DNA from: Hyphomicrobium sulfonivorans
GTDB taxonomy: Bacteria > Pseudomonadota > Alphaproteobacteria > Rhizobiales > Hyphomicrobiaceae
Length of the DNA: 64,000 bases
Direction: 5' to 3'
Assembly: GCF_013306565.1 (NCBI RefSeq)
Contig: NZ_PZPO01000005.1
Location: 372,001-436,000 of the forward strand
A program made the position numbers and the translations under genes. The notes under the pieces are model-generated. The model searched no databases, was not told where the DNA came from, and saw only the letters and a program-made list of their open reading frames with translations. Of this stretch, positions 10,246 through 36,080 are shown piece by piece (within the stretch, counting starts at the first letter, position 1; every line of letters begins with the position of its first letter).

Positions 10246-10281
10246 TGTACCGGTCGATACAGGAGGAGACCGATCGGTACA
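10246..10281. promoter_or_regulatory. Two copies of the island's TetR-type operator upstream of the polytopic membrane protein
   Basis: TGTACCGGTCGATACA (10246-10261) and GAGACCGATCGGTACA (10266-10281) match the consensus NNKAYYGRTCGRTACA found also before the FMN reductase gene, dmoA and the TetR gene. The first copy lies in the same context as at 13148 (GACTTTTG, then CATGATG immediately before the operator), suggesting a shared promoter design. Confidence 0.65.
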
Positions 10282-10401
10282 AATACAATCCGTCGACGGC
10301 GAGCCTTGTTTCCCTGTCGCCGTCAGGCGGACGTGCCGTTCAATAAAAACAAGTTCCGTAACTCGAGAACGAATAACAGCAAAAGCCCTAAAGGGGGGGG
10401 A

Positions 10402-13135: not shown

Positions 13136-13165
13136 TTGGTCGCATGATGGACCGATCGATACAAT
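13136..13165 (+). promoter_or_regulatory. Promoter with TetR-type operator for the FMN reductase-sfnG operon
   Basis: TGGACCGATCGATACA (13148-13163) is a copy of the island operator. It sits between a candidate -35 (TTGGTC, 13136-13141) and a candidate -10 (TACAAT, 13160-13165), overlapping the latter, the classic position for repression. Confidence 0.65.
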
Positions 13166-13210
13166 CGATAGGCTTAAAAAAAATAACAAGCCGAACACGA
13201 GGAAACGCCG

Positions 13211-13756
13211 ATGCTTACTGTGGTGACCATCAACGGTAGCCCTACCAAACCATCCCGCACGGGCATATTGATTGACGCCGTCGCTACTGCGGTGTCCGGC
13301 AGAATGTCCTGCACGCGGGAATCTATCTCTATTTCGGATGATGCGCACGAATTCATGTGTGGTCTTACGCGTCCGGAAGTAACTGCGCGGGGCGAGAAGC
13401 TGCTCCAGATGACCGAACGGGCCGATCTGCTCATTCTCGGCACGCCGGTCTATCGCGCCACTTATACGGGCGTCTTCAAGCACTTCTTCGACCTGGTCGA
13501 TCGCGATGCGATGCGTGATCGGAAGGCTGTGCTTTGCGCAACCGGCGGCTCGCCCCTTCATGGCCTGATGCTTGAGCATCAGATGCGGCCGCTGATGGGC
13601 TTTTTCTCGATGCAAACCATAACCACGGGTTTGTTTGGACTGACCGACGATTTCGCCGATGGTCGCGTCGTAAGCCCTGATCTCAATAAGCGGATTGAGC
13701 GCGTCGCTAACGAAGTCGTCGCCGCATTCGCACCGGTCCGAGCGCTGGCGAGCTAA
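13211..13756 (+). CDS. NAD(P)H-dependent FMN reductase, MsuE/SsuE-like
   Basis: 181 residues of the flavodoxin-like NADPH-dependent FMN reductase family. The N-terminal VVTINGSPTKPSRTG is the phosphate-binding loop; ADLLILGTPVYRATYTGVFKHFFDLV is the central conserved block; ATGGSPLHGLMLEHQMRPLMGFF completes the flavin site. Such enzymes make FMNH2 for two-component monooxygenases. GAGGAAACGCCG before ATG 13211 is a good ribosome site. The next gene encodes an SfnG-like monooxygenase that needs FMNH2, so this is its likely partner. First gene of an operon running to ribF. Confidence 0.88.
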   Translation: MLTVVTINGSPTKPSRTGILIDAVATAVSGRMSCTRESISISDDAHEFMCGLTRPEVTARGEKLLQMTERADLLILGTPVYRATYTGVFKHFFDLVDRDAMRDRKAVLCATGGSPLHGLMLEHQMRPLMGFFSMQTITTGLFGLTDDFADGRVVSPDLNKRIERVANEVVAAFAPVRALAS

Positions 13757-13843
13757 AACCAAGGTGCGCGGCGCAGGTGCGTGACGCACCACGCGCCCAC
13801 CTATTTGAGACAGATGCAAATGCCTTATGCGGAATTGCCTAGC

Positions 13844-14962
13844 ATGGCCAAGCCGTTCAGAAAACAACCGACGAAATTCGCTCTTTGGGTGCCCAATGTG
13901 AGCGGTGGACTGGTGGTTAGTAAAGTTCCGCAGCGTACGGACTGGGGGCTTGACTACAACACCAAGCTCGTGCGGATCGCCGAGGATGGCGGGTTTGAAT
14001 ACGCCCTGACCCAGATCCGGTTTAGCGGCAACTACGGCGCCGAATATCAGCACGACTCACTGATACTTTCTGCGGCGCTGCTTGCCAACACCTCGCGCAT
14101 CAACATCATCAGCGCGATCATTCCAGGCATTTTCCACCCGGTTGTTGTTGCCAAGCATGGCGCGACTGCGGATCAGATCTTTAATGGTCGCTGGGCCATT
14201 CACGTCGCGACGGGTTGGTTCCGGCGCGAGTTCGATGCGCTGGGTGTTGAATGGCTTGAGCACGATGAGCGTTATGTGCGCTCCCGCGAGTTCGTCGAGA
14301 TCTTGCGCGGTGTCTGGTCGGAAGATAACTTCGACTACGACGGCAAATACTGGAAAATCAGCGATTATTCGCTGAAGCCAAAGCCTCTCACAATCCCTGA
14401 TCGACTGATGCCGGAAATTTTCCAGGGCGGTAATTCGATTGCAGCCCAGAAGATGGCCGCTGACGTTTCTGACTGGTACTTCATGAACGGCAATACGCTG
14501 GATGAGCATGAAGGCCAGATTGACTTTGTCAGCAAGCGCGCGGCGGCAATCGGCAGGCGCGTGCGCTTCGGCGTCAACGCGTTTGTGATTGCACGCGAGA
14601 CTGAAGCTGAGGCCAATGCCGAGCTGGAGCGGATCATCGCTGGCGCAGATATCGCGGCGGTCGACAAGTTCCGCGATGCTGTGCGCGAAGCCGGACAGGC
14701 GACCAAAGAAAAGATCGGGATGTGGGTGGATTCCACCGATCGCGATCTCGTTCAGTACAACGACGGCTTCCGCACCAACCTGATTGGAACGCCGGAACAG
14801 ATCGCCGAGCGTATCGTCAATCTTCGCAAGATCGGCGTTGATCTCGTCCTTTGCTGCTTCCTGCACTGTCACGAAGAGGCGCGCTTCTTCGGTGAGCGGG
14901 TAATCCCTCTCGTGCGCGAGATGGAGCAGGCGGATCCGATGTGCAGATTTACGGTCATCTAA
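13844..14962 (+). CDS. sfnG: FMNH2-dependent dimethylsulfone monooxygenase (SfnG-like, LLM family)
   Basis: 372 residues from ATG 13844, chosen because MAKPFRKQPTKFALWVPN matches the usual N-terminus of SfnG; ATG 13814 and GTG 13781 are possible upstream starts. Hallmarks are KFALWVPNVSGGLVV, GFEYALTQIRFSGNYGAEYQH, DQIFNGRWAIHVATGWFRREF and VQYNDGFRTNLIGTPEQIAERI, all in the SfnG subgroup of the luciferase-like monooxygenases. In pseudomonads SfnG converts dimethylsulfone and O2 with FMNH2 to methanesulfinate and formaldehyde. It sits between an FMN reductase and RibBA. Pseudomonad sfnG is sigma-54/SfnR controlled; here a TetR-type operator precedes the operon instead. Confidence 0.88.
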   Translation: MAKPFRKQPTKFALWVPNVSGGLVVSKVPQRTDWGLDYNTKLVRIAEDGGFEYALTQIRFSGNYGAEYQHDSLILSAALLANTSRINIISAIIPGIFHPVVVAKHGATADQIFNGRWAIHVATGWFRREFDALGVEWLEHDERYVRSREFVEILRGVWSEDNFDYDGKYWKISDYSLKPKPLTIPDRLMPEIFQGGNSIAAQKMAADVSDWYFMNGNTLDEHEGQIDFVSKRAAAIGRRVRFGVNAFVIARETEAEANAELERIIAGADIAAVDKFRDAVREAGQATKEKIGMWVDSTDRDLVQYNDGFRTNLIGTPEQIAERIVNLRKIGVDLVLCCFLHCHEEARFFGERVIPLVREMEQADPMCRFTVI

Positions 14963-15061
14963 CCGCAAGCAAACGGGAATGTCGGGGTTGATAAGCAGCG
15001 ACCATTAATCAAAGCGATATGATCAGGGCAGCGATAACAAACAAGCCAAATGCCCGGTTCG

Positions 15062-15073
15062 ACGAGGAAACGC
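15062..15073 (+). repeat. Shared 12-nt ribosome-site block ACGAGGAAACGC
   Basis: The identical 12-mer precedes the FMN reductase gene (13197-13208), ribBA (15062-15073) and dmoA (18160-18171). The FMN reductase and ribBA leaders also share AACAAGCC a little upstream. It supplies GAGG as ribosome binding site. Confidence 0.5.
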
Positions 15074-15077
15074 AGTC

Positions 15078-16208
15078 ATGAATTTCATGGCCAGTCATCA
15101 GCACGGGGAACAAATCAGTTCCGCGGAAGAAATAATTGAGGAGGCCAGGGCGGGGCGTTGCTTTATTCTCGTTGACGACGAAAGTCGTGAGAATGAAGGC
15201 GACATTGTCATTCCGGCACAGTTCGCCACGCGGGACGTGGTGAACTTCATGGCGCGCTATGCGCGTGGTTTGATTTGCCTGGCGCTGACGCCACAGCGCG
15301 TCTCTCATCTGAAGCTGAGCGCGATGGCGCAAAGCAACGATGCGGGATTGCAGACGGCGTTTACGCTTTCGATCGAGGCACGCACGGGCGTGACGACCGG
15401 AATATCGGCGGCTGACCGCGCGCGAACTATCGCAGTGGCCATCAACCCGGAAAGTCGCCCCGACGACATCGTTACGCCAGGACACATCTTTCCGTTGATC
15501 GCCCGGGAGGGTGGCACGCTGGTTCGCGCCGGTCACACGGAAGCGGCGGTGGATGTTTCGCGCATCGCTGGGCTCAATCCGTCGGGTGTGATCTGCGAGG
15601 TGATGAACGAAGACGGATCGATGGCGCGATTGCCTGATTTGCTGAAGTTCGCGCGTCAGCACAACATGAAGCTGGGCACGATCGCGGACCTGATCGCGTA
15701 TCGCCTGCGCAACGAGCGACTGGTGAAGCCGGTTGCCTGGTCATGGATCCATCACCCCAGCTTTGGCGAATGGCGTCTGGTGGTCTATCGCGACACCGTC
15801 GAAGGTGGCGAACACGTGGTGCTGATCAAAGGTGAAGTCGACGCACGCGTTGAGGATGCCGATCCCGAGCCGGTCGCGGTTTGCCTGCATCGATCCGATT
15901 TCATCAGCGACGTCATTCTTGCCCGAGAGGGTGATGGGCTGCACAGCGCGATGTTCAAGATCATGCGTCGCGGGCGGGGCGTGATCGTGATGGTCAACGA
16001 CAGCCGCACGAATGCACTCTCAAATCGTATTCGCAACCTGAGCCCGCATTCCCGTCCCGACCCGCAGTTTCGCGAGTATGGCATCGGCGCTCAGATCCTG
16101 GTCGATATCGGCGTGCGGGAGATGGTTTTGCTGTCCGGGCGTGAGCAAACGCTGGTCGGCATCGAAGGATACGGTCTCACCGTCGTTGAACAAGAGCCGC
16201 TCAGCTAA
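15078..16208 (+). CDS. ribBA: RibBA-like 3,4-dihydroxy-2-butanone-4-phosphate synthase with degenerate GTP cyclohydrolase II domain
   Basis: 376 residues. The N-terminal half is a full RibB domain ([20 protein letters not shown] with the acidic metal loop; [25 protein letters not shown]). The C-terminal half has the RibA fold, but the zinc site is lost: where active enzymes have Cys-x10-Cys-x-Cys, this protein reads [20 protein letters not shown] without the three cysteines. It should therefore make the four-carbon precursor of riboflavin but not open GTP. A separate intact ribA lies at 22164. Operon position is third, after the FMN reductase and sfnG. Confidence 0.88.
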
Positions 16209-16234
16209 TCGGCTCAAAGGGGGAAACAAACAAC

Positions 16235-16765
16235 ATGTCCTGGACATCATCAGTGAGTTCGAAAGTGATGAAAATGTTCTCTTCAAACAGCTCTGTCGAT
16301 TCGGATGCATTCCGCTCGGTGATGCGGCAGCTCGCCGGTTGCGTGACGGTTATTACAACTGAAGGCGATGGCAAGCTGCATGGTTTCACCGCCACGGCTG
16401 TGTGCAGTGTATGCGCGGAGCCGCCGTCAGTTTTGATCGCGGTAAACCAGACTGCGCGTACGCATCCGCATATCGACAAGAAAGATGCGTTTGCGATCAA
16501 CATTCTGTCTGAAGATCAAAAGCCACTAGCCGACCACTTCGCGACCAAGGGTGACGATCAGTTCGACACGGTTGAATATGCGCTCGGCCACACCGGCGTG
16601 CCGCTGCTGAAGGGTGCGGCGGCGCATCTCGAATGCGAAGTCTATCAGAAGATTCCGATCGGCACGCACACGCTGTTCGTTGGCCGCGTGATCAACACCG
16701 GGCAGGAGCGTCGCGCACCGCTGGTTTATTACAACGCCCGCTACGGCCTGATCGAACAAATCTGA
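16235..16765 (+). CDS. Flavin reductase (FMN-binding split-barrel), candidate DmoB-type partner
   Basis: 176 residues of the flavin reductase-like domain family (HpaC type): FRSVMRQLAGCVTVITTEGDGKLHGFTATAVCSVCAEPPSVLIAVN is the FMN-binding first half and HTLFVGRVINTG the conserved end. Such NADH:FMN oxidoreductases feed FMNH2 to large-component monooxygenases. AAAGGGGG lies 13 nt before ATG 16235, and the frame allows a start at 16268. It is the second reductase in the island and could serve DmoA or SfnG; which reductase pairs with which oxygenase cannot be told from sequence. Confidence 0.85.
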   Translation: MSWTSSVSSKVMKMFSSNSSVDSDAFRSVMRQLAGCVTVITTEGDGKLHGFTATAVCSVCAEPPSVLIAVNQTARTHPHIDKKDAFAINILSEDQKPLADHFATKGDDQFDTVEYALGHTGVPLLKGAAAHLECEVYQKIPIGTHTLFVGRVINTGQERRAPLVYYNARYGLIEQI

Positions 16766-16820
16766 TCTGTTCGCCATTCCCACACCCCCCGATTGCAACG
16801 AACGACGGCGCAGAAAAGAC

Positions 16821-17762
16821 ATGCTGCAGACCTTGACGATGGACGGCCGAGAGGCCGGCACCTGGCGCTTCAGTGAGCTTTCAACCAAAGGACGCCACCT
16901 TTTGGGCGGTCATGTGGTTGTCAGTTCGTTTGATGGTTTTCATCGTGGCCATCAGGCACTGATGCACCATGCAAAGCAGGTGTCTGCAGCGGACGGCAGC
17001 CCTGTCGTTGCGCTGTTGTTCGATGCAGCGAGCGATGATGCGCGCACACCGTTGGCGCAGGGCGAGGAAGTTGCCCGGCGTCTGAGGCTGCAGGGTGGCG
17101 CGAACGTCGTTGCTCTCGGGTTCGCATCGAATGCAAGCTGGTTGGAATGCCAGGCCTTATGTGAACTGCTGCGTGAGTTTGCACCGAAGTCTATCACTGT
17201 CGGTGCAAACTTCCGCTTCGGTCCGAAGTCGTCCATCGGTTCGCAGGTGCTGGCGTCGATGGCGCGGTCGTTTGCGATATCGACCACGGTCATGGAGACG
17301 GTGGCCTGCGAGGAGTGCGGTCCGATCACCGCCGCGAATATCCGGCAGCATCTGGCGGCGGGCGACATTCAGGCGGCGAACAGGCTGTTGGGGCGCAACT
17401 GGACGATCGAAGGCCCGGTTGTGCATGGCTATAAGCGCGGCCGTGAGCTTGGTTTCCCGACCGCAAACGTGCAGCCCCTGCACCGGCTCGATCTTGCGCA
17501 TGCGATTTATGCGGTGCGTGTTTATGCCGGTGAGCGCGTGCTTGATGGCGTCGCTTGCTACGGTACGCGTCCGCAGTTTGACGATGGCGCGCCTGCACTT
17601 GAGGTGCACATTCTCGACTTCGCGGGCGATCTCTATGGCCAGCGGTTGCGAGTCGAATTTGTCGCCCATCAGCGGCCGGAGCTTAAATTCTCATGCGTGG
17701 ATGATCTGGTGCGGCAGATGGAAATTGACCGGGCAGAAGCCCGCGAGCTTTTGGCTGCATAA
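16821..17762 (+). CDS. ribF: Bifunctional riboflavin kinase/FAD synthetase
   Basis: 313 residues. The FAD synthetase half carries the nucleotidyl-transferase signature SSFDGFHRGHQALM (residues 35-48). The riboflavin kinase half carries the conserved GRELGFPTANV and VACYGTRPQFDDGAPALEVHILDF. It phosphorylates riboflavin to FMN, the cofactor of the neighbouring oxygenases. The adenylyl-transferase half looks more divergent than usual (no recognisable ISSTxxR motif; the aligned stretch is ITAANIRQHLAAGD), so FAD synthesis may be weak. Last gene of the operon begun at 13211. A housekeeping ribF is expected elsewhere. Confidence 0.85.
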   Translation: MLQTLTMDGREAGTWRFSELSTKGRHLLGGHVVVSSFDGFHRGHQALMHHAKQVSAADGSPVVALLFDAASDDARTPLAQGEEVARRLRLQGGANVVALGFASNASWLECQALCELLREFAPKSITVGANFRFGPKSSIGSQVLASMARSFAISTTVMETVACEECGPITAANIRQHLAAGDIQAANRLLGRNWTIEGPVVHGYKRGRELGFPTANVQPLHRLDLAHAIYAVRVYAGERVLDGVACYGTRPQFDDGAPALEVHILDFAGDLYGQRLRVEFVAHQRPELKFSCVDDLVRQMEIDRAEARELLAA

Positions 17763-18171
17763 GTAACGGCCAGTCAGATCCGCCGCTTTGGTTTGGCGAC
17801 GCCCTTTTTTTGGGCGTTAGAGTAAATAATCCGCACGCAGCGCAATAAATGTACCGCTGGGTCCAAAACGACCCGGCGCGTCTGCATGTGCGTAATCGGC
17901 ATTGCACATTAATAGGTGTTTTTCGGCGTTTTTTGAAGTTTACATGCTTGCAAAAACTCCGCCCCTGGATAAATGTATCGGTCGGTACAGGTTGACGTGC
18001 GTTTGCTGGCACTCAACGGCAGGAGGGTACCGCCTGCGGATAATTGCGGAACGCTGTTTCGGTCAGAACCCGCGCAAGCGCGTCTTTGGGGCTGGAAGGG
18101 GAGCCGCTTCGAAAGGAAAGCGCCTTTTGGGAAATCGGCGCCCACCTCAATAAACGTAAACGAGGAAACGC
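17763..18171. other. Intergenic leader region before dmoA
   Basis: 409 nt without a gene. A small hairpin ACGCCC/GGGCGT around a T-run (17800-17818) may end the ribF transcript. The operator at 17974 follows, then about 180 nt of possible 5' leader to the dmoA start. I looked for an FMN riboswitch consensus and did not find one. Confidence 0.5.
17974..17989. promoter_or_regulatory. TetR-type operator upstream of dmoA
   Basis: TGTATCGGTCGGTACA, an almost perfect palindrome and the most symmetric copy of the island operator (consensus NNKAYYGRTCGRTACA). Confidence 0.65.
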
Positions 18172-19614
18172 ATGAAAAAGAGAATTGTTCTGAACGCCTT
18201 CGACATGACCTGCGTCAGCCATCAGTCGGCCGGCACGTGGCGTCATCCGTCCAGCCAGGCGGCGCGCTATAACGATCTTGAATACTGGACCAACATGGCG
18301 ATGGAGCTGGAGCGCGGTTGCTTCGACTGTCTCTTCATCGCTGACGTGGTTGGTGTTTACGACGTGTACCGCGGTTCGGCCGAGATGGCGCTGCGCGACG
18401 CCGATCAGGTTCCCGTCAACGATCCGTTCGGTGCGATTTCCGCGATGGCTGCCGTTACCGAGCATGTCGGCTTCGGTGTGACCGCTGCTATCACGTTCGA
18501 GCAGCCCTATCTGCTGGCGCGCCGTCTGTCGACGCTTGACCATCTCACCAAGGGCCGCGTGGCCTGGAATGTTGTTTCGTCCTACCTGAACAGCGCCGCG
18601 CTCAACATCGGCATGGATCAGCAGCTCGCACACGACGAGCGCTACGAGATGGCCGATGAGTACATGGAAGTCATGTACAAGCTGTGGGAAGGATCCTGGG
18701 AAGACGACGCCGTCAAGCGCGACAAGAAGAGCGGCGTGTTCACGGACGGCAGCAAGGTCCACCCGATCAATCACCAGGGCAAGTACTACAAGGTGCCGGG
18801 CTTCCACATCTGCGAGCCGTCACCGCAGCGTACGCCTGTTATCTTCCAGGCCGGTGCTTCCGGTCATGGCCGTAAGTTCGCCGCCAGCAACGCTGAAGGC
18901 ATGTTCATTCTGACGACCAGCGTCGAGCAGGCCCGTCAGATCACCACGGACATCCGCAATCAGGCTGAAGCTGCCGGTCGTTCGCGCGACTCGATCAAGA
19001 TCTTCATGCTGCTGACGGTCATCACCGGTGACAGCGACGAAGCTGCTGAGGCGAAGTATCAGGAATACCTGTCCTACGCCAATCCGGAAGGCATGCTTGC
19101 ACTTTACGGCGGCTGGACCGGCATCGACTTCGCGAAGCTTGATCCCGATGAGCCGCTGCAGGCGATGGAGAACGACAGCCTTCGCACCACGCTTGAGTCG
19201 CTCACGCACGGTGAGAACGCCAAGAAGTGGACCGTTCGCGACGTTATCCGTGAGCGTTGCATCGGCGGTCTGGGTCCGGTGCTGGTCGGCGGTCCGCAGA
19301 AGGTTGCTGACGAACTGGAGCGTTGGGTCGACGAAGGCGGCGTGGACGGTTTCAACCTGGCTTACGCAGTGACGCCGGGTTCGGTCACCGACTTCATCGA
19401 CTACATCGTTCCTGAACTGCGCAAGCGTGGTCGCGCTCAGGATTCCTACAAGCCGGGCTCGCTGCGTCGCAAGCTCATCGGCACCAACGACGGTCGCGTC
19501 GAGAGCACCCATCCGGCTGCTCAGTATCGCGATGCGTATGTTGGCAAGGAAAGCGTCGCCGACCGCACGCAGCCGTCGCCGTTCGCCAACGCCAAGGCGC
19601 CGGTGGCTGAGTAA
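18172..19614 (+). CDS. dmoA: Dimethylsulfide monooxygenase, FMNH2-dependent large subunit
   Basis: 480 residues of the NtaA/SnaA/DszA branch of luciferase-like monooxygenases. Visible landmarks are MKKRIVLNAFDMTCVSHQS, the GCFDCLFIADVVGVYD block, TKGRVAWNVVSSYLNSAALN (flavin phosphate region) and TPVIFQAGASGHGRKFAASNAE. As far as I can recall, this sequence is near identical to DmoA of Hyphomicrobium sulfonivorans, which oxidises DMS with O2 and FMNH2 to methanethiol and formaldehyde. The start is supported by ACGAGGAAACGC directly before ATG. Own promoter region with operator; a large stem-loop follows the stop codon, separating it from the downstream small gene. Confidence 0.93.
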   Translation: MKKRIVLNAFDMTCVSHQSAGTWRHPSSQAARYNDLEYWTNMAMELERGCFDCLFIADVVGVYDVYRGSAEMALRDADQVPVNDPFGAISAMAAVTEHVGFGVTAAITFEQPYLLARRLSTLDHLTKGRVAWNVVSSYLNSAALNIGMDQQLAHDERYEMADEYMEVMYKLWEGSWEDDAVKRDKKSGVFTDGSKVHPINHQGKYYKVPGFHICEPSPQRTPVIFQAGASGHGRKFAASNAEGMFILTTSVEQARQITTDIRNQAEAAGRSRDSIKIFMLLTVITGDSDEAAEAKYQEYLSYANPEGMLALYGGWTGIDFAKLDPDEPLQAMENDSLRTTLESLTHGENAKKWTVRDVIRERCIGGLGPVLVGGPQKVADELERWVDEGGVDGFNLAYAVTPGSVTDFIDYIVPELRKRGRAQDSYKPGSLRRKLIGTNDGRVESTHPAAQYRDAYVGKESVADRTQPSPFANAKAPVAE

Positions 19615-19700
19615 CGCCAGCGGGATGCTCTGGAGCGAGATGGATGGGAGGGGAACGCGGCTGCCAAGTCGCCTTTTCCCTCTCGCTTCAAATCCCGTAG

Positions 19701-19737
19701 GGGCGCGGCTGTCGTTCTGACGCCGATGGCCGCGCCC
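19701..19737 (+). terminator. Hairpin after dmoA
   Basis: GGGCGCGGC (19701-19709) pairs with GCCGCGCCC (19729-19737), 9 bp with a 19-nt loop, no T-run. It directly precedes a second, larger stem-loop. Confidence 0.45.
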
Positions 19738-19742
19738 GCATT

Positions 19743-19810
19743 ATCCCGCACGCGCATGCTGAAGCGCGTTAGCACACAACGCGCTTCTGGGAGGCGTGTG
19801 CGTGCGGGAT
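19743..19810. repeat. Large 68-nt stem-loop between dmoA and the ABM gene
   Basis: Outer arms ATCCCGCACG (19743-19752) and CGTGCGGGAT (19801-19810) are perfect and extend inward with G-U pairs to about 18 bp. An inner stem AAGCGCGTT (19762-19770)/AACGCGCTT (19778-19786) is also perfect. It could stop transcription, or protect the dmoA mRNA 3' end and set lower expression of the downstream genes. Confidence 0.6.
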
Positions 19811-19856
19811 GCCCGAATTCTTGATGACTTTTGCAACACACAGAATGGGTGCCGAA

Positions 19857-20159
19857 ATGACAACGTGCGGACTTTACGTGCGACTGAAGGCGAAGGCCGG
19901 CAAGGAAGTTGAGCTCGAGAGCTTTCTGAAAGCTGCGCTCCCTGCTGCTGAAGCCGAAAAGGATACGCCGGTTTGGTACGCGGTGCGTTTTGCGCCGGGC
20001 GATTTCGCGATTTTCGATGCATTCGATGCAGAAGCCGGACGGCAAGCGCACATCAACGGTGCAATTGCTGCGGCGCTGATGGCGAAGGCTGACGAGCTGT
20101 TGGCTGAGGCACCGAAGATCGAAGCTTGGGATACGCTTGCAGTGAAGCTGCCCAGCTGA
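19857..20159 (+). CDS. Small ABM-fold (antibiotic biosynthesis monooxygenase-like) protein
   Basis: 100 residues resembling the dimeric alpha+beta barrel ABM family (CGLYVRLKAKAGKEVELESFLKAALPAAEAE; WYAVRFAPGDFAIFDAFDAEAGRQAHINGAIAAALM). Members include cofactor-free quinol monooxygenases and proteins of unknown role. ATG 19857 is chosen since family sequence begins there; the frame stays open to 19809. It lies between dmoA and soxC and may act on a reactive product of the pathway, but nothing in the sequence shows a substrate. Confidence 0.7.
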   Translation: MTTCGLYVRLKAKAGKEVELESFLKAALPAAEAEKDTPVWYAVRFAPGDFAIFDAFDAEAGRQAHINGAIAAALMAKADELLAEAPKIEAWDTLAVKLPS

Positions 20160-20246
20160 CGAAGGTTTTCTGGCGGCTTGCCTGGCTGATCTTACCTGGA
20201 AGGCTTGGGCAAGCTTGCCATATGCACACGAATGCAGGAGCGAGCA

Positions 20247-21596
20247 GTGGCGCAACGGCATGACAACGGGAAGCAAAAATCTGCTTCCGTGGAAGACAGC
20301 GAAATCTGTCCGTGTCAGGACGGTATGCATCTCGATGTAGATCTATCGCGTCGGCGCATGCTGATGTCGACAGCTGCAATCGCCGCAGTTCCTGCGCAAC
20401 TATTTGCCTCTTCGGCAATCGCAGAGACGAAAACAGCTCCCCCCGGAGCTGTGCTCTATGATGTGCCGGATGACCCCACCAAAGTGATGGGGCGTGCTCT
20501 GTTGGAAGATGGCGGTTATGGAACTCGCTCTCAGTTCGAGACCGCTGTAAGGGCACGGGCCGATAATCCAAACGATATGACGTCGTGGTCGTATACGCCG
20601 CTGGCCGACATGAAGGGCAACCTGACGCCATCGGGCCTGCATTACGAACGGCACCATGGTGGCATCCCTGCCATCGATCCCGCCAAGCATTTTCTTTACG
20701 TGCACGGCATGGTCGATGAGGCGAAGAAGTTTTCGATTGCGGACATTCTGCGTTTGCCGTCGATCACGCGCCGCTACTTTATTGAGTGCTCCGGTAACAC
20801 GTACGATGAATGGGCGAAGCCAAAGGGCAAGAACGTTCAGGTTACGCACGGTTTGCTGAGCACCTCTGAATGGACCGGTGTTCCGTTCGCGACTTTCGCG
20901 CGCCATGTCGGGCTCAAGGATGATGCATCCTGGGTGCTCGGCGAGGGTGCGGATGCAGCGGTGATGACGCGTTCCATTCCGCTCGACAAGATGCTGACCG
21001 ATGGTCTGATCGCCTACGGTCAGAACGGTGAGATGATCCGTCCGGAGCAGGGCTATCCGCTGCGTCTCGTGGTTCCCGGTTATGAGGGGAACATGATGAT
21101 CAAGTGGCTGCGCCGGCTGCAGGTCAGCGACAGGCCGTTCATGACGCGTGAGGAAACGGGCCGCTATACCGGCCTGATGCCGAATGGCCGGGCTCGGCAG
21201 TTCTATTATTCGATGGATGCAAAATCCGTCATCACCTTCCCGTCGGGTGAGATGTTACTGCCGAAGCCCGGTCACTACGAGATTCGCGGCATTGCGTGGT
21301 CGGGACGCGGCCGTGTGCAGGCTGTCGATATTTCGATGGACGGTGGCAAAAACTGGATCCCGGCGCGCATAGACGATACGCCCGAGGCGATGAGCTCGGT
21401 GCGCTTCAGTTGTCCGTGGTTCTGGGACGGGAAACCCGCGATCCTGCAGAGCCGCTGCATCGAAGATTCCGGTTATGTGCAGCCGACGCGCACGGAGCTG
21501 ATCCGTCTGCGCGGCGACCACTTCTTCTATCACTACAACGCAATTCAGAGCTGGGCTGTGGCAGCGGACGGGAGCGTGAGCAATGTCCATGTTTAG
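20247..21596 (+). CDS. soxC: SoxC-family sulfite/sulfur dehydrogenase, molybdenum subunit
   Basis: 449 residues from GTG 20247, chosen because AGGAG stands 6 nt before it; TTG 20205 and ATG 20232 are alternatives. A Tat signal (DLSRRRMLMSTAAIAAVPAQLF) is followed by the sulfite-oxidase Mo-pterin fold with the Mo-ligand Cys in YFIECSGN (about residue 181), then GEGADAAVMTRSIPLDK, PEQGYPLRLVVPGYEGNMMIKWLRR and the dimerisation domain (GIAWSGRGRVQAVDISMDGGKNW). This is the SoxC pattern rather than SorA. It acts in the periplasm with the cytochrome encoded by the next gene, which overlaps it by 14 nt. It could oxidise sulfite or sulfane sulfur from DMS breakdown. Confidence 0.88.
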   Translation: MAQRHDNGKQKSASVEDSEICPCQDGMHLDVDLSRRRMLMSTAAIAAVPAQLFASSAIAETKTAPPGAVLYDVPDDPTKVMGRALLEDGGYGTRSQFETAVRARADNPNDMTSWSYTPLADMKGNLTPSGLHYERHHGGIPAIDPAKHFLYVHGMVDEAKKFSIADILRLPSITRRYFIECSGNTYDEWAKPKGKNVQVTHGLLSTSEWTGVPFATFARHVGLKDDASWVLGEGADAAVMTRSIPLDKMLTDGLIAYGQNGEMIRPEQGYPLRLVVPGYEGNMMIKWLRRLQVSDRPFMTREETGRYTGLMPNGRARQFYYSMDAKSVITFPSGEMLLPKPGHYEIRGIAWSGRGRVQAVDISMDGGKNWIPARIDDTPEAMSSVRFSCPWFWDGKPAILQSRCIEDSGYVQPTRTELIRLRGDHFFYHYNAIQSWAVAADGSVSNVHV

Positions 21597-22167
21597 AGCC
21601 GTTGCTGCAGCGGTGGCCATGCTTGTGGCCGTTCCGCTGATCGCAAGCGCTAGCGGCGATCCTGCAATAGACACCATCGGCACTGCGGTCAGTCCCGAGG
21701 AGCTCGCGAAGTTCTTTGTCATCATGCCAGATGGTGAGGGGCTGCCGCCTGGGTCAGGAACGGCCGCTGCCGGTTTGCCGCTGTACGCTGAAAAATGCGC
21801 AATGTGCCATGGTGAAAATCTCGAAGGTCTCGAAGGCACAGGTGCGCCGCCACTCGCGGGTGGCCGCGGAACGCTCGCGACCAAAAAGCCCTTCAAGAGC
21901 GTAGAGAGCTACTGGCCCTACGCTTCCACATTGTACGATTACATCTGGCGAGCTATGCCATTCCATGAGCCAGGATCGCTGACACCCGATGAGGTGTATT
22001 CGATCACGGCGTACATCCTGTCGTTCGCCAAGATCATCGACGAGGCCACCGTTCTGGATGCGAAATCGCTTTCGGAGGTGAAAATGCCAAATGTCGATGG
22101 TTTCTATGTCGACAACGGCCCCGACCGCCTGATCTATCGCGCGCAAGGTGGCGCAACATCGAAATGA
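21583..22167 (+). CDS. soxD: SoxD-like mono-haem cytochrome c subunit (short form)
   Basis: 194 residues with a signal peptide (AVAAAVAMLVAVPLIASASG) and one haem site CAMCH. The segment MPDGEGLPPGSGTAAAGLPLY, the GYW-like VESYWPYASTLYDYIWRAMPF and LTPDEVYSITAYIL match the first domain of SoxD. Known SoxD proteins are about twice as long and have a second haem domain, which is missing here. It should pass electrons from SoxC to the respiratory chain. Its stop overlaps the ribA start (ATGA), so soxC, soxD and ribA are translationally coupled. Confidence 0.85.
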   Translation: MSMFRAVAAAVAMLVAVPLIASASGDPAIDTIGTAVSPEELAKFFVIMPDGEGLPPGSGTAAAGLPLYAEKCAMCHGENLEGLEGTGAPPLAGGRGTLATKKPFKSVESYWPYASTLYDYIWRAMPFHEPGSLTPDEVYSITAYILSFAKIIDEATVLDAKSLSEVKMPNVDGFYVDNGPDRLIYRAQGGATSK

Positions 22168-22805
22168 CCGTGCAAGTGAATGTAATGGCGTCAATCGCGG
22201 ATGCTCCCGCGCTGGAGGTGGTGGAGACGGCGTTGCCCATCACCGTGGACGGGCGGGAGCAAATGTTTCGCGCCTTTGCATTTCAGGGCGCCAAAGAGGA
22301 AGAGCAACTGCTGGTGCTGGTGCATGGCGACGCATCAGCAGGGCAGGCGTTGCCGCTGGTGCGGTTGCATTCGGGCTGTGTGACCGGAGACATCTTCCAC
22401 TCGATGCGGTGCGACTGCTATGAGCAGCTTCAGGCCAGCCTGAAGGCGGTTCTGGAGTCGTCGCACGGTGCCATTGTTTATATGCCGTACCATGAAGGTC
22501 GCGGCATCGGCCTGTTCAAGAAGATGCGCGCCTATGCGCTGCAGGAGCGCGGCGTCGACACTGTCGATGCCAATACGGCGATCGGTGCTCCTGTCGACGC
22601 ACGTGACTTTGGACTGGCCGCGAAGGCGCTCGCCTATCTGGGGCTGAATGAAATCCGGCTGCTTTGCAACAATCCGGCCAAGGTTGAAGCGCTGGCAGGC
22701 TTCGGCATCACGATAGCGGAGCGGATCTCGGTGGCCAGCAAGCCGAACCGCCACAATGAGCGCTATCTGAATACCAAGCGTGATCGCATGGGCCACCAGA
22801 TCTGA
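22164..22805 (+). CDS. ribA: GTP cyclohydrolase II
   Basis: 213 residues, a stand-alone RibA. The zinc site is intact: GCVTGDIFHSMRCDC gives Cys72, Cys83 and Cys85 in Cys-x10-Cys-x-Cys spacing. YHEGRGIGLFKKMRAYALQERGVDTVDAN and LLCNNPAKVEAL are the GTP-binding and catalytic blocks. It opens GTP, the first step of the pyrimidine branch of riboflavin synthesis, and complements the zinc-less RibBA at 15078. ATG 22164 overlaps the soxD stop; ATG 22185 is an alternative. Confidence 0.93.
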   Translation: MTVQVNVMASIADAPALEVVETALPITVDGREQMFRAFAFQGAKEEEQLLVLVHGDASAGQALPLVRLHSGCVTGDIFHSMRCDCYEQLQASLKAVLESSHGAIVYMPYHEGRGIGLFKKMRAYALQERGVDTVDANTAIGAPVDARDFGLAAKALAYLGLNEIRLLCNNPAKVEALAGFGITIAERISVASKPNRHNERYLNTKRDRMGHQI

Positions 22806-23040
22806 GCGGCCCGTTTGGGCTGTCTGGATCAATCCCACCGTTAAACGAATTGTTGGGCCGTGTTGTGCTCGTCACTGTATCGCGCGCTCCACGATTCTGC
22901 CGACCATGCTGCTGCGATGCACAACGCGGTCAGCGGGCGCCCGAGGTGTCGGGGCATCAAATTTGCGTGTGAAAGCCCGTCTGAACGGCCGATCTCAGGT
23001 TTGCCGTCGCTGTGACGTGCAAAAACGGGTGCGATTTCGG

Positions 23041-23664
23041 TTACACAGCGGTCTTATCTTCCGCGATCGACAGGGTCATTTTGGCAAACACGTCGGCAAT
23101 GTCGTTGGATGCCTGCTTGCCGCCGGGCTTGAGCCACAGGAAGCTGTAGAAGTACATGCCCAAAATGCCTTTGATCGCTACATTTGGTAGCGGACGGAAT
23201 AGGCCTTTTTTCTCGCCCTCTTTCAGCGTTTCCGACCAAAGATCCTGATAGGCCTTATGCAGATCGGAAACGATTCGATGGCGCTGGCCTGTCAGGCAGT
23301 CGGCCTCGCGGAAGCAAACCGTCATTTCGGGCAGGTTTGTAAAAATGCATTGCATCAATAAACGGCTTAGCAAAAATATCCGTTTGCGAGGGTCAGGTTC
23401 GGTCTCCATTGCGGACTTACCACTTAAGACCAATTCCTCTATGTAACGCACGACAATGCTGAAAAGCAGCTCTTCCTTGCTGCTGATATGGTAATAGAGC
23501 GCGCCACGCCCCAAGCCGACGGCGTCGCCAATTTCTGCAACACCTACAGCACGATAGCCCCTGGTCGCGAACAGATCCGCAGCAATTTTCTGGATGCGTT
23601 CCTGCTGCTGTCCGGCTGCTTGAGTTCCCTTGGCGGCACGGCTGATTTGCGTCGCCGAATCCAC
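23041..23664 (-). CDS. TetR-family repressor, likely regulator of the organosulfur regulon
   Basis: 207 residues if started at GTG 23664. The HTH is QQQERIQKIAADLFATRGYRAVGVAEIGDAVGLGRGALYYHISSKEELLFSIV, and the C-terminus is helical (KEGEKKGLFRPLPNVAIKGILGMYFYSFLWLKPGG) as in regulators of the TetR_C_17/AcrR kind. The frame is open up to 23982, but that extension contains the operator TGGACTGGTCGATACA (23677-23692) and has low-complexity sequence, so I place the start after the operator. The ribosome site there is weak and a longer N-terminus remains possible. Because the same operator precedes the oxygenase operons, this is the best candidate for their shared repressor, with autoregulation. 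Confidence 0.85.
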   Translation of the reverse strand: MDSATQISRAAKGTQAAGQQQERIQKIAADLFATRGYRAVGVAEIGDAVGLGRGALYYHISSKEELLFSIVVRYIEELVLSGKSAMETEPDPRKRIFLLSRLLMQCIFTNLPEMTVCFREADCLTGQRHRIVSDLHKAYQDLWSETLKEGEKKGLFRPLPNVAIKGILGMYFYSFLWLKPGGKQASNDIADVFAKMTLSIAEDKTAV

Positions 23665-23676
23665 GTCTTCATCGTG

Positions 23677-23692
23677 TGGACTGGTCGATACA
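23677..23692. promoter_or_regulatory. TetR-type operator at the TetR gene itself
   Basis: TGGACTGGTCGATACA, a copy of the island operator, 13 nt upstream of the proposed GTG start, as expected for autoregulation. Confidence 0.6.
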
Positions 23693-24127
23693 TTTGCGTT
23701 ATACCACTCCGAGGATGATCCTTGAGAGGCTTTCGTCGCCGAAGGTGTTTTAGCGCGCGACAAGGACTTTTCTCCGAATTCCATTGCTGCATCAGATGAT
23801 GCGACAAACCAATAACAGCACAGGGCCGCTGAAATGCAAGTCATCTTGGCTGCGAAAAGCCAAGTCAAAAAAATCCAGACGCTGGAACGAAGGAATTGGC
23901 GCATTGCATTCTTGTTTTTCAGGCAATGCGGTAATTCCAAGCGCGAAGCGCCGGCGCGCCGACCACGCCCGGCGCAGATCACTCATAGCCCATCACTGAC
24001 CGTTCGCGGAAGACCTTGTCGCGCGGGTGAGCATTGCAGTGCAGGGTTGGAGCACAGCGGCCACATCCGTCGCCTGAAGCTCTCGTATGGGTGCAGGCGC
24101 AAAAACAATTAAGTGGAGTTGCAATCC
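23693..24127. other. Divergent intergenic region between tetR and the maoC-like gene
   Basis: About 435 nt. The TetR frame remains open through part of it (to 23982) but I regard this as non-coding or an unused N-terminal extension. No further operator copy was found toward the maoC-like gene. Confidence 0.35.
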
Positions 24128-24577
24128 ATGGCCAACAATGTCGGCTCAGGCTGGTCTGGCGTCGTGAACGGGAAGCCGCAGGTTGGGGCTGTCGCGCGTC
24201 GGACGCGCCGGACCTCGCTGGAAGATATCCAGCGGTTCTCGGACATCACCGGTGATTGCAACCCGCTCCACTATGACCGCGCGCTGGCTGAGGCCTCGAT
24301 CTTTGGAAAACTGATTGTGCAGGGCGGGGTGACCTCCGGGCTGCTGAACGCGGTCGTGGCAGAAGACCTGCCTGGCCCGGGTACGGTTTTTCTAAGCGTG
24401 AACTGGCGCTTTGTGCGGGCTGTCGGTGTGGATGAGGAAATAACGGGCGAGGTCGAGATTGTCTCGGTGCGTGACGACAAACCGATCTGCGAACTGAAGA
24501 CCCGGGTTTTGAACGCCGATGGCGAAGAGTGCCTTGTCGGGTCAGCCGTTGTTTATGTCGCCGCGCTGCAGCGGTAA
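24128..24577 (+). CDS. MaoC-like (R)-hydratase/thioesterase-fold protein
   Basis: 149 residues with a hot-dog MaoC dehydratase domain: ISL-like SLEDIQRFSDITGDCNPLHYD carries the catalytic Asp and His of (R)-specific enoyl-CoA hydratases, followed by IVQGGVTSGLLNAVVAEDLPGPGTVFLSVNWRFVRAV. ATG 24128 has GGAG 9 nt upstream. Such enzymes hydrate trans-2-enoyl-CoA; what it does in a C1-sulfur island is unclear. It starts a run maoC-MFS-ribE-ribH, so it is probably co-transcribed with flavin genes. Confidence 0.82.
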   Translation: MANNVGSGWSGVVNGKPQVGAVARRTRRTSLEDIQRFSDITGDCNPLHYDRALAEASIFGKLIVQGGVTSGLLNAVVAEDLPGPGTVFLSVNWRFVRAVGVDEEITGEVEIVSVRDDKPICELKTRVLNADGEECLVGSAVVYVAALQR

Positions 24578-24620
24578 ATCTTGGGCCGGAAGGCTCGCCT
24601 CGCATGCAAAGAAAACTTAG

Positions 24621-25856
24621 ATGCTGATGAAATCCGATGCCGATCGGCAGGCAGTCCATGGGCAGTGGCAGGTTCTGGCTATCCTTAGCCTCGCCATCGT
24701 TCTTTCCATGACGACGTGGTTTTCCGCGACGGCGATCATCAATGAACTGAAAGAGACGTGGGCCATTGATGGCGCCGCGGCGGCATGGCTGACGAACGCG
24801 GTGCAGATCGGGTTTGTGGTCGGTGCGCTGGGTGCCAGTCTTCTCAACATCCCTGACATTGTGCCGGCCCGTTGGCTGATGGCGATTTCAGCCTGTCTGG
24901 CAGCGGCTGCCAACCTGGCGCTGCTGATTGCGCCATCGGGCGAGGTGGCCATCGCGTTGCGGTTTGTAACCGGCATCGCGTTGGCGGGCATTTATCCGCC
25001 GGCGCTGAAGGTTATCTCGACGTGGTTCCTGCATGGGCGCGGCCTGGCACTGGGTATTGTCATCGGCGCTCTGACGCTCGGCTCTGCATTCCCGCATTTG
25101 TTGCGCGCAGTGACTTCGGATCTGAACTGGAAGCTCGTCGTTGCCGCGACCTCGGGCATGACACTGCTTGGCGCTTTGCTGATGGCGCGCTTTGCCGTCG
25201 AGGGCCCGCATCGGTATGCGCGCGCTACGTTTGACCCGCGCCAGATCGGCCGCGTGCTGCGCAACAAACCCGTGATGCTGGCGAACATCGGATACTTCGG
25301 CCACATGTGGGAGCTGTATGCGATGTGGGGCTGGTTCCTGGCCTTCGCGCAGGCGGCGCTTGTGCAGCACAATGTCGACACATCGTATGCGTCGATGATC
25401 ACATTCGTCGTCGTGGCCTCTGGCGTTGTCGGGTGTGTGCTGGGCGGTGTGATGGCGGACCGGATCGGCAGAACCGCAACCACCGCGTTGATGATGGTCG
25501 TCTCCGGTCTGTGCGCGCTGCTTATCGGCTTTGCCTTCGATGCTCCGCTGTGGGTGTTCCTGACAGTCGCCATTATCTGGGGCATCTCCGTGATTGGAGA
25601 TTCGGCGCAGTTTTCGGCGATTGTCACGGAGATCGGCGAATCCTCCAGTGTCGGCACCGCGCTGGCGCTGCAACTTGGTCTTGGCTTCGCGCTCACCGTG
25701 ATTGCAATTCGAGTGGTGCCGGAAATCGCGGCCGCGATGGGAAGCTGGCAGTGGACCTTCCTTGTGCTGGTGCCCGGTCCGTTCATCGGTGTCATCGCGA
25801 TGCTGATGCTGCGACGTATGCCTGACGCCATCAAGATCGCGCACGGCAGGAAGTGA
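24621..25856 (+). CDS. MFS transporter
   Basis: 411 residues with twelve predicted helices in two six-helix halves. Motif A-like GGVMADRIGRTATTALMMV lies between TM8 and TM9, and the first half shows FVTGIALAGIYPPALKVISTWF and HGRGLALGIVIGALTLGSAFPHLLRA. Substrate unknown; by context a sulfonate, sulfite or organosulfur exporter or importer is possible. Its stop codon is only 5 nt before the ribE start, and it follows the maoC-like gene by 43 nt. Confidence 0.88.
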   Translation: MLMKSDADRQAVHGQWQVLAILSLAIVLSMTTWFSATAIINELKETWAIDGAAAAWLTNAVQIGFVVGALGASLLNIPDIVPARWLMAISACLAAAANLALLIAPSGEVAIALRFVTGIALAGIYPPALKVISTWFLHGRGLALGIVIGALTLGSAFPHLLRAVTSDLNWKLVVAATSGMTLLGALLMARFAVEGPHRYARATFDPRQIGRVLRNKPVMLANIGYFGHMWELYAMWGWFLAFAQAALVQHNVDTSYASMITFVVVASGVVGCVLGGVMADRIGRTATTALMMVVSGLCALLIGFAFDAPLWVFLTVAIIWGISVIGDSAQFSAIVTEIGESSSVGTALALQLGLGFALTVIAIRVVPEIAAAMGSWQWTFLVLVPGPFIGVIAMLMLRRMPDAIKIAHGRK

Positions 25857-25861
25857 CAGGC

Positions 25862-26470
25862 ATGTTCACGGGTATCGTCACCGGCATCGGCGAGGTGATC
25901 GGACGGGACGGCGGCAGCTTCACCATCCGCTGTCCCTATGCGGCGGAGACGCTGGAAATCGGCGGCTCGATGGCGTGCAACGGCTGCTGCCTGACCATGA
26001 CGTCGATCCGCGTCGACGATGCTGGCGCTGTTGCCGGCAGCAGCATCTTCACCGCCGACGTTTCCAACGAAACCAGCGCCAAGACAACGATCGATAGCTG
26101 GCAGCCGGGCACGCGCATCAACCTTGAGCGGCCTTTAGCGATGGGGCAGGAACTGGGCGGGCATCTCGTCACCGGCCATGTCGATGGCGTCGCGCGCATT
26201 GCCGACATCATCGCTGACGGCGACAGCCGCCGCTTTGTCATCGAGGCGCCGGACCATCTGGCGCCGTACATCGCGCCCAAGGGTTCCGTTGCATTGGACG
26301 GAGTGTCGCTGACAGTGAACGAGGTCAGCGACAATTGTTTCGGGGTCAACATCATCCCGCACACCTTGACGGTGACGACGTGGGGCGCGAAAACCGCCGG
26401 CCAATCGATCAATCTCGAAGTTGATCTGTTCTCGCGATATATCGCGCGCCTGCTGGAGTTCAGAACGTGA
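25862..26470 (+). CDS. ribE: Riboflavin synthase, alpha chain
   Basis: 202 residues with the two tandem lumazine-binding barrels. It begins MFTGIVTGIGEV, the family hallmark, with ACNGCCLTM in the first barrel and KGSVALDGVSLTVNEV plus NIIPHTLTVTTW in the second. It makes riboflavin from two dimethyl-ribityl-lumazine molecules. ATG 25862 is chosen for the canonical N-terminus and the AGGAAG upstream. Part of the maoC-MFS-ribE-ribH run. Confidence 0.95.
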   Translation: MFTGIVTGIGEVIGRDGGSFTIRCPYAAETLEIGGSMACNGCCLTMTSIRVDDAGAVAGSSIFTADVSNETSAKTTIDSWQPGTRINLERPLAMGQELGGHLVTGHVDGVARIADIIADGDSRRFVIEAPDHLAPYIAPKGSVALDGVSLTVNEVSDNCFGVNIIPHTLTVTTWGAKTAGQSINLEVDLFSRYIARLLEFRT

Positions 26471-26526
26471 CGAACAGTGCTGGCGAACACCACAGCTTTA
26501 ACAACGCGCGCGGGATTGAGTGAAAT

Positions 26527-27039
26527 ATGATTGTTAAAACCGATAGCCAGTCAAAGCAGCGTGCGCCGCGCGGCAAGCTTGATGCGCGCGTGCTGATCAT
26601 TGAGGGCCGGTACTACGAAGACATCGGCGATCTGCTGCTGGAGCACGCGGTTGCGGCCCTGACCGAGCGCGGCGTCGCCTATGAGCACATCGTGGTGCCG
26701 GGCGCATTGGAAATTCCGCAGGTGCTGATCCAGGCGGCGAACTGGGGCCTGCTGACGCGCGATGCGGCGAACGGTTTTGACGGCGTCGTGGCGCTGGGCT
26801 GTGTCATTCGCGGTGAGACATCGCACTACGATATTGTATGCAACAACGCCAACCACTGGATGATGGAAACGGCGGCACGGCATGCGACGCCGGTCGGCAA
26901 CGCCATCCTGACGGTGGACACCATGGAGCAGGCGTTGGCGCGCGCCAACGGCGGCAAGGGCGCCGACGCTGCGAATGCGTGCATGCAACTGATTGAGATT
27001 GGCCGCGCGTTTGAAACGAGACGCGCCGGGGCGGTGTGA
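26527..27039 (+). CDS. ribH: 6,7-dimethyl-8-ribityllumazine synthase
   Basis: 170 residues. VVPGALEIPQVLI, ALGCVIRGETSHYDIVCNN and TPVGNAILTVDTMEQALARA are the lumazine synthase blocks, including the conserved His in the GETSHYD loop. It condenses the RibB product with the pyrimidine from the RibA branch. The gene is not followed by nusB and no ribD is nearby, unlike the standard alphaproteobacterial rib operon, so this looks like a second, pathway-dedicated set. Confidence 0.95.
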   Translation: MIVKTDSQSKQRAPRGKLDARVLIIEGRYYEDIGDLLLEHAVAALTERGVAYEHIVVPGALEIPQVLIQAANWGLLTRDAANGFDGVVALGCVIRGETSHYDIVCNNANHWMMETAARHATPVGNAILTVDTMEQALARANGGKGADAANACMQLIEIGRAFETRRAGAV

Positions 27040-27855: not shown

Positions 27856-27932
27856 CGGGGCGTAGCTCAGCCTGGTAGAGCACCTGCTTTGGGAGCAGGG
27901 GGTCGCGAGTTCGAATCCCGCCGCCCCGACCA
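27856..27932 (+). tRNA. tRNA-Pro (UGG)
   Basis: Cloverleaf visible: acceptor CGGGGCG pairs with CGCCCCG; D-arm GCTCAGCCTGGTAGAGC; anticodon stem-loop CTGCTTTGGGAGCAG with anticodon TGG; T-arm GCGAGTTCGAATCCCGC; 3' CCA encoded (27930-27932). Confidence 0.95.
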
Positions 27933-32938: not shown

Positions 32939-33069
32939 ACACGGCTTTTTTTACGTCCGCGGGCGGGGTGTCCCGGTGGGTGGTGTTCGTTGCTGCCCGC
33001 ATTTCTGCGGCGGCCTGAACCCGTGTCCCCATTCGGCCCAGCCCCCTTAATCGATGCAGGGGTTCGCCG

Positions 33070-35937: not shown

Positions 35938-36080
35938 TTTTCCGCGTAAGCGGACTGCTGAACTGAACTGCTGAAATGAAATACCGGGGCGCTTTGTGTG
36001 TTGCCCCGGTCCACCCCTTCTTGTGCCCTGTCTGTAGCGCGTCGGCACGAAGTAACATCGTCGTACACGGAGAATGCATC

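Follow-up and report, generated by a model that had tools for sequence, protein, structure and literature searches.

Gene content and conservation of the island

The window analysed here, a 64,000-nucleotide stretch of the genome of the soil methylotroph Hyphomicrobium sulfonivorans (G000:C9:372001-436000; genome of 3.55 Mb in 14 contigs), contains an island in which genes for two monooxygenases dependent on reduced flavin mononucleotide (FMNH2), SfnG and DmoA, lie among a second set of riboflavin synthesis (rib) genes. An initial annotation made from the sequence had placed this sulfur and flavin island at 13148-27039, and profile searches of the window's open reading frames (ORFs) recovered every gene it had named, within 13211-27039. 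Along the plus strand, the order is an msuE-type reductase, sfnG, ribBX, an HpaC-type flavin reductase (fre), ribF, dmoA, soxC, soxD and ribA, followed by tetR on the minus strand and then by maoC, mfs, ribE and ribH (Table 1). Gaps within the msuE-sfnG-ribBX-fre-ribF run are 24, 115, 26 and 55 bases, and four-base overlaps place the start of ribA inside the soxD stop and the start of ribE inside the mfs stop. The tetR, maoC and mfs genes had been overlooked, as had two conserved genes flanking the island. SfnG exceeds the curated equivalog cut-off of its family (382.95 bits) and by family score is a dimethylsulfone monooxygenase, predicted to convert its substrate to methanesulfinate with FMNH2. 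For the oxidative dimethylsulfone route via methanesulfinate, which the initial annotation had suggested may run beside the dimethylsulfide route, no match to MsuC or MsuD was found among the island ORFs scanned.

Nine islands, this one included, were read: those of this genome and G004 (same genus), G158, G130, G333, G341 and G347 (a second genus) and G355 (a third), all of one family, and that of G197, from another family, in which gene order is changed. ribBX adjoins sfnG in all nine, with the wider gene set recurring alongside, and ribBX, ribF and ribA are interspersed with the same sulfur genes in eight of the nine, across three genera. Island RibF is likewise present in eight islands, no ribF being found in the 20 kb fetched from G197; G130 gave no maoC match. 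All 11 island genes compared between this genome and G004 had a low ratio of nonsynonymous to synonymous substitution rates (dN/dS) of 0.008-0.107.

The island accompanies a distinct group of SfnG proteins. Eight of 103 family genomes encode an island-type SfnG (72–100% identity to the window's) and all eight carry the island, whereas ordinary SfnG copies in the same family are 46–58% identical to the window protein. Other island SfnGs are 72–74% identical to it (98% in G004), compared to 46–60% for ordinary SfnGs. SfnG scored above cut-off in 20 of 297 genomes sampled from the order, and ribBX stood beside all four of the island type (this genome, G130, G158 and G197). A class sample gave a ribBX match at E 1e-130 in one of 385 genomes, this one, and a phylum sample gave SfnG at E 1e-110 in 20 of 398, with identity above 60% in this genome only. 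We also scanned 37 ordinary SfnG loci, seven of them fetched twice (30 distinct loci; 1.5 kb flanks, E 1e-5), and in none of the 30 did the flanks match the island rib, HpaC-type reductase, sox, tetR, maoC or mfs proteins; where dmoA was matched (31 of the 37 loci), the match presumably reflects the SfnG protein of the locus, a relative of DmoA. Among the 30 is this genome's second SfnG, on contig C6, where it is encoded with msuE, sfnB, ssuD and ssuABC.

Three observations concern dmoA and its product. In this genome and G004 the gene is internal to the island, and the five other islands from which it was fetched have it at their edge. Synonymous divergence from G004 is smaller for dmoA (0.16) than for the ten other island genes compared (0.31–0.56). 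Although DmoA releases methanethiol, an SBP56-type methanethiol oxidase (PF05694) had no match in this genome or G004; of 13 genomes, six gave a PF05694 match, and those of G333 and G347 were strong and spanned the full length.

A second set of flavin genes

The initial annotation had proposed that the rib genes form a dedicated second copy from which only ribD is missing, and had named in advance a search of the remaining genome as its check. That search located the run nrdR-ribD-ribE-ribBX-ribH-nusB-thiL on contig C11 and the second ribF of the genome on C8. Since this housekeeping run, which includes ribD and nusB, is located on a different contig, the island rib genes are a dedicated second set lacking ribD; RibD above cut-off occurs once per genome in all 13 genomes searched, and in this genome that copy is on C11, outside the island. 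Identity to this genome's housekeeping copies is 51% for island RibBX and 38% for island RibF.

Other parts of the proposed set needed revision. The zinc-cysteine motif C..GD......C.C is absent from the RibA half of both RibBA proteins (island and C11), so that the protein annotated as RibBA is a RibBX, the name given to RibB fused to a half resembling guanosine triphosphate (GTP) cyclohydrolase II but lacking zinc-binding residues (PMC10012899; this and the other papers cited by PMC number are represented by excerpts). The housekeeping-type RibBA of each of the 13 genomes examined lacks the motif too. The stand-alone island RibA carries it (CVTGDIFHSMRCDC), alone among three PF00925 matches in this genome. 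Instead of the second copy it had been taken for, RibA is, by this motif, the genome's only recognisable zinc-type GTP cyclohydrolase II. Loss of the separate ribA of Aeromonas salmonicida leads to a riboflavin requirement (PMC10012899). A second zinc-type RibA is encoded elsewhere in G158, G130, G333, G341, G347 and G355, G002 has one zinc-type RibA and G197 an additional zinc-type RibBA-like protein, and none was found in G001, G005 or G007 (same genus). We considered the formamidase BrbF, of the creatininase family (PMC9478397), as the housekeeping alternative to RibA; creatininase-family proteins occurred in 6 of 15 genomes, with no match in this genome, G004 or G001, and BrbF thus does not explain the housekeeping route here. 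Because neither a zinc-type RibA nor a creatininase-family protein was found in G001, an entry enzyme outside the reach of these searches probably exists there, and one may exist in this genome as well.

The annotated ribF is present with its kinase motifs GFPTAN and LEVH kept (TIGR00083: 186.1 bits, cut-off 184.35), but its flavin adenine dinucleotide (FAD)-synthetase half is altered: the adenylyltransferase motifs FxPxP and SS[ST]xxR are not matched (FDAAS and ITAANIR), while HxGH is kept. The FxPxP prolines are present in nine of nine housekeeping RibFs and in four of the eight island RibFs (G333, G158, G341 and G347), and lost in three (FDAAS in this genome and G004, FEKSA in G130); in G355 the whole adenylyltransferase half is missing and a 176-residue kinase remains. 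GFPTAN occurs in seven of the eight, with GFATAN in G355. Island RibFs form a clade apart from housekeeping RibFs. In a tree of five island proteins, built without dmoA because that gene lay outside the fetched stretch in G333 and G347, the four keepers of FxPxP formed one clade (bootstrap 100) and the losers occupied other branches; the nodes joining these have low support (51 and 75), and the loss is accordingly put at two or three events. The RibFs of this genome and G004 share 27–35% identity with the five other full-length island RibFs in the adenylyltransferase half and 59–67% in the kinase half, compared to 50–56% and 69–76% for housekeeping RibFs of the same genomes (G355 left out), so that the gap between halves is not island-specific but is wider in the island. 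In the Corynebacterium ammoniagenes enzyme, P56A/P58A substitution abolished FAD-synthetase activity and spared the kinase (PMC6829536). Judged by its motifs, the island RibF is probably specific for flavin mononucleotide (FMN), a kinase without FAD synthesis.

ribE and ribH, also counted in the second set, are present and by sequence are recent copies of the housekeeping genes, but among the nine islands they were found only here and in G004. Island and housekeeping ribE are identical over 632 of 632 bases in this genome (25859-26490 versus C11 L008:5954-6585) and over 605 of 605 aligned bases of the gene in G004, although ribE differs by 6.6% between the two species; gene conversion between the copies within each genome is the most economical explanation. 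Divergence between the ribH copies is 2.3% in this genome and 7.6% in G004. The island block resembles a ribE-ribBX-ribH run from which ribBX was excised.

A palindrome before sulfur and flavin genes

Aligned island promoters contain palindromic TGGACCGRTCGRTACA-like sites, several of them just downstream of an AT-rich, -10-like stretch. The core AYCGRTCGRTAYA lies 46–69 bases upstream of msuE in nine of nine islands, 194–254 bases upstream of dmoA in all seven where that gene was fetched, and upstream of a conserved membrane-protein gene in seven of eight (not in G197; this stretch of G004 was not fetched), these distances resting on estimated gene starts. Further palindromes stand before soxC in G130 (L046:11890-11905, exact), the porin-like gene in G355 and mfs in G197, and the first suggests that the G130 sox-ribA run joins the palindrome regulon. 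Allowing one mismatch, the window gave 10 matches (a palindrome counting twice) compared to 0.64 expected in 64 kb, and none of 100 shuffles reached 10. The whole genome contains five exact copies, and none of a reversed control pattern. Four of the five are in the island; the fifth lies before a formate dehydrogenase operon, 44 bases ahead of the likely start of a LysR gene that is followed by genes for a formate dehydrogenase gamma subunit, a NuoF-like subunit, formate dehydrogenase alpha and fdhD. No exact copy occurred in 468,179 bases of loci outside the islands and this operon, and the C6 msuE-sfnG-sfnB and ssu locus has neither the palindrome nor rib genes.

Close spacing, gene overlaps and the common palindrome are the observations that bear on co-transcription of rib genes with those of the FMNH2-dependent monooxygenases. 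The tie between the two that the initial annotation had drawn is backed by the palindrome and by conservation across islands, both read from sequence. The TetR-family protein encoded in all nine islands is a candidate reader of the palindrome and would repress the promoters that carry it. No FMN riboswitch reached gathering score in the window or in eight other loci, including the housekeeping operons of this genome and G004. A first motif guess, TGGACCGGTCCA, gave no clear excess over rearranged palindromes in the nine islands (control fraction reaching the count, 0.08–1.0), and a search for palindromes with 6-base arms common to upstream regions found nothing general.

Table 1 Genes and operator-like sites of the island and its flank in the window
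Feature	Positions	Strand	Remarks
Double operator-like site, TGTACCGGTCGATACA at 10246-10261 and a second at 10266-10281	10246..10281	+	Upstream of membrane-protein gene
Conserved membrane protein	10306..11469	+	Pfam/NCBIfam: no family at E 0.001; better start probably 10402
Porin-like protein, island edge, conserved	11666..12979	+	Assigned by appearance; no family match at E 0.001
Operator-like palindrome TGGACCGATCGATACA	13148..13163	+	Upstream of msuE-sfnG-ribBX-fre-ribF run
MsuE-type FMN reductase, 19.7 kDa	13211..13756	+	TIGR03566 181.5 bits, below cut-off 212.5
SfnG-type FMNH2-dependent dimethylsulfone monooxygenase (predicted), distinct clade	13781..14962	+	TIGR04021 541.6 bits
RibBX: 3,4-dihydroxy-2-butanone 4-phosphate synthase and GTP cyclohydrolase II-like half without zinc cysteines	15078..16208	+	
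HpaC/RutF-type flavin reductase, 19.1 kDa, DmoB candidate	16235..16765	+	PF01613; below every NCBIfam cut-off
RibF paralogue: kinase half kept, FMN adenylyltransferase half without FxPxP prolines	16821..17762	+	
Operator-like palindrome TGTATCGGTCGGTACA	17974..17989	+	Upstream of dmoA
DmoA, dimethylsulfide monooxygenase	18172..19614	+	478/480 residues identical to PDB 6ak1 chain A
SoxC-type molybdenum sulfite dehydrogenase	20205..21596	+	TIGR04555 524.8 bits, cut-off 420
Cytochrome c in SoxD position	21583..22167	+	Domain match and position only
RibA, stand-alone GTP cyclohydrolase II, zinc-cysteine motif	22164..22805	+	4-base overlap with soxD
TetR-family regulator, candidate palindrome reader	23041..23982	-	Present in 9/9 islands
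MaoC-like hydratase	24113..24577	+	
MFS transporter	24621..25856	+	
RibE riboflavin synthase	25853..26470	+	DNA identical to housekeeping copy over 632 bases
RibH lumazine synthase	26527..27039	+	97.7% DNA identity to housekeeping copy

The membrane protein, read from its better start (10402-11466) and preceded by the double palindrome, was found in all eight islands where the stretch was fetched. It is 58–82% identical to the six island relatives aligned with it (alignment A1, seven sequences; the G158 copy was left out, a 43-residue frame from start-finding), and its AlphaFold model had a mean predicted local distance difference test score of 43.7, too low for the model to be of use. Scans of the window gave five sigma-70 promoter-like sites compared to 5.7 expected, no excess, and 26 terminators compared to 16.4 expected, which were not used for any claim. 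Beyond the island, a tRNA gene (27856-27929) lies just past its ribH end, and a cobalamin riboswitch (32727-32951) directly precedes the genes for the large and small chains of ribonucleotide reductase (33070-37214).

Interpretation and known systems

Gene content, conservation, the second rib operon, the common palindrome and the motif losses, all read from sequence, make a co-regulated organosulfur catabolic island carrying its own FMN supply the likely explanation. The repressor's identity, its inducers, the FMN-only activity and the flux are what we infer. A TetR-type repressor, most likely the island's own, would leave its DNA in response to methylated sulfur compounds or their products, and its release would free the msuE-sfnG-ribBX-fre-ribF run, dmoA and the membrane-protein gene, and perhaps also the formate dehydrogenase operon (specific for nicotinamide adenine dinucleotide, NAD) on another contig. 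SfnG and DmoA would split carbon–sulfur bonds with FMNH2 and release formaldehyde; this would be converted to formate, from which formate dehydrogenase may return NADH to the flavin reductases, the two reductases would renew FMNH2 from NAD(P)H, and SoxCD would dispose of sulfur. RibBX and RibA would increase flux through riboflavin synthesis at its two points of entry and RibE and RibH (in this genome and G004) at its end, with RibD supplied by the housekeeping operon, and the kinase half of island RibF would convert riboflavin to FMN without onward FAD. A stronger form holds that one repressor and one 16-bp operator set oxygenases, FMN and NADH together, that FAD synthesis was cut from RibF two or three times independently, leaving new riboflavin to end as FMN, and that all flavin synthesis in this genome depends on the RibA of a catabolic island or on an undiscovered GTP cyclohydrolase. 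This form we put forward tentatively, at somewhat less than an even chance, a slight lowering of our earlier estimate made because the formate dehydrogenase site could be chance.

Several points weigh against the proposed supply. High FMN demand is assumed, and the enzymes recycle FMN. The palindrome pattern was derived from the islands' own sites, so the island counts are partly circular; about one exact chance copy is expected per genome (an estimate scaled from the window figure), and chance could therefore explain the formate dehydrogenase site taken by itself. No exact palindrome lies before the soxC-soxD-ribA or maoC-mfs-ribE-ribH runs of the window or in its tetR-maoC gap, and TetR self-regulation is thus not seen. 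For RibF, all eight island copies read RPQF in the kinase half where housekeeping copies read RPTF or RPTY; the published consensus has PT[FVI] at this position, and its source also notes rare kinase-only prokaryotic proteins (PMC2573891). P58 is conserved in all species compared, while P56 and H57 are not and are both replaced in the Streptococcus pneumoniae enzyme as well (PMC6829536). The window RibF keeps equivalents of H28, H31 and N125, without which the C. ammoniagenes enzyme cannot make FAD (PMC3509593), and four island RibFs retain FDPHP. Finally, dN/dS between this genome and G004 is 0.027 in the FAD-synthetase half and 0.047 in the kinase half, which indicates that the former is under constraint and not simply decaying.

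Four other explanations were weighed, all unlikely. The one that survives best is that the island serves sulfur scavenging and not growth on methylated sulfur as a carbon source, in line with the part that SfnG and MsuE play in sulfur acquisition by Pseudomonas and Acinetobacter (PMC13352529); set against it, the separate, ordinary C6 locus is free of rib genes and palindrome, and energy metabolism is suggested by SoxC and also by the formate dehydrogenase site, should that site be real. Slightly less probable is that the island acquired its rib genes by drift, as generic duplicates that meet ordinary flavin needs and have no tie to sulfur. The near-identity of ribE and ribH to the housekeeping genes fits such drift, and RibA, as the sole zinc-type enzyme found, may also serve housekeeping; however, the recurrence of ribBX, ribF and ribA with the same sulfur genes, the palindrome common to the rib run and dmoA, and the divergence of RibBX and of the separate RibF clade from the housekeeping proteins argue otherwise. 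We give equally little credence to an island RibF that is mainly a regulator, its altered N-terminal half sensing or binding something and FMN supply being secondary. This half is conserved between close species despite its motif loss, and Bacillus subtilis RibR, which interferes with FMN riboswitches, is a precedent (PMC7693651), but no such riboswitch was found at the loci searched and one island copy is without the entire N-terminal half. Least probable is that the extra rib genes supply flavins for export through the MFS protein, secretion having been proposed for Sinorhizobium meliloti RibBA; against this, the kinase half is the better conserved half of RibF and phosphorylated FMN normally stays in the cell. 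Alpha-proteobacterial RibBA has been linked to flavin secretion (PMC9478397) and mfs overlaps ribE, but the stretches fetched for the other seven islands, those outside this genome and G004, yielded no ribE. Flavin secretion and chance clustering are ranked low, and we retain an island with its own FMN supply.

The individual enzymes have close known relatives. SfnG gave a 471-bit match over residues 26-385 to PDB 8t0u, whose source organism we take to be Pseudomonas. The structure nearly identical to the window DmoA, PDB 6ak1, is presumably DmoA of Hyphomicrobium sulfonivorans, as a reference title in PMC9259527 suggests. In the excerpts of the DmoA literature, no rib neighbourhood is described, and the word "riboflavin" is absent from the main text of both papers (PMC9259527, PMC13352529); they call the Hyphomicrobium dmoB gene uncharacterised (PMC9259527) and dmoA and dmoB neighbours (PMC13352529). 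No description of rib genes with dmoA or sfnG in Hyphomicrobium was found in the search listings of open-licence papers. Both island reductases are offered here as candidates for DmoB.

To our knowledge, Bacillus subtilis ribR comes without flavin synthesis genes. Like the island RibF as predicted, RibR is a single-function flavokinase (PMC12542839) encoded with sulfur-compound genes, in a 12-gene sulfur transcription unit that is induced by methionine or taurine and repressed by MgSO4 (PMC7693651). It differs in acting on FMN riboswitches, whereas the island has RibBX and RibA and no FMN riboswitch was found. The island RibBX resembles other proteobacterial RibBX proteins in its cyclohydrolase-like half without zinc-binding residues (PMC10012899); unlike the other cases, there are two copies here, one of them in a catabolic island. 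The locus offers a concrete case for how Hyphomicrobiales start riboflavin synthesis, and its apparently FMN-only RibF would be useful for flavin engineering.

The Photobacterium lux-rib region likewise joins an FMNH2-dependent, luciferase-family monooxygenase and a flavin reductase to RibE, RibB, RibH and RibA and has been explained as cofactor supply (PMC10049116; operon also in PMC10763503). It serves bioluminescence and not carbon–sulfur cleavage, and no riboflavin kinase is named in the excerpts (PMC10049116), whereas the island combines two monooxygenases with SoxC, a common palindrome and a RibF that is probably committed to FMN. The cofactor-supply logic itself is thus already in print for lux-rib and ribR; new here are the palindrome common to the rib run and dmoA, which is a candidate operator, the RibF motif losses and RibA as the sole zinc-type enzyme. 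If expression bears this out, methylotrophs degrading dimethylsulfide and dimethylsulfone would treat free FMN as a limiting substrate with a dedicated supply, in parallel to luminous bacteria.

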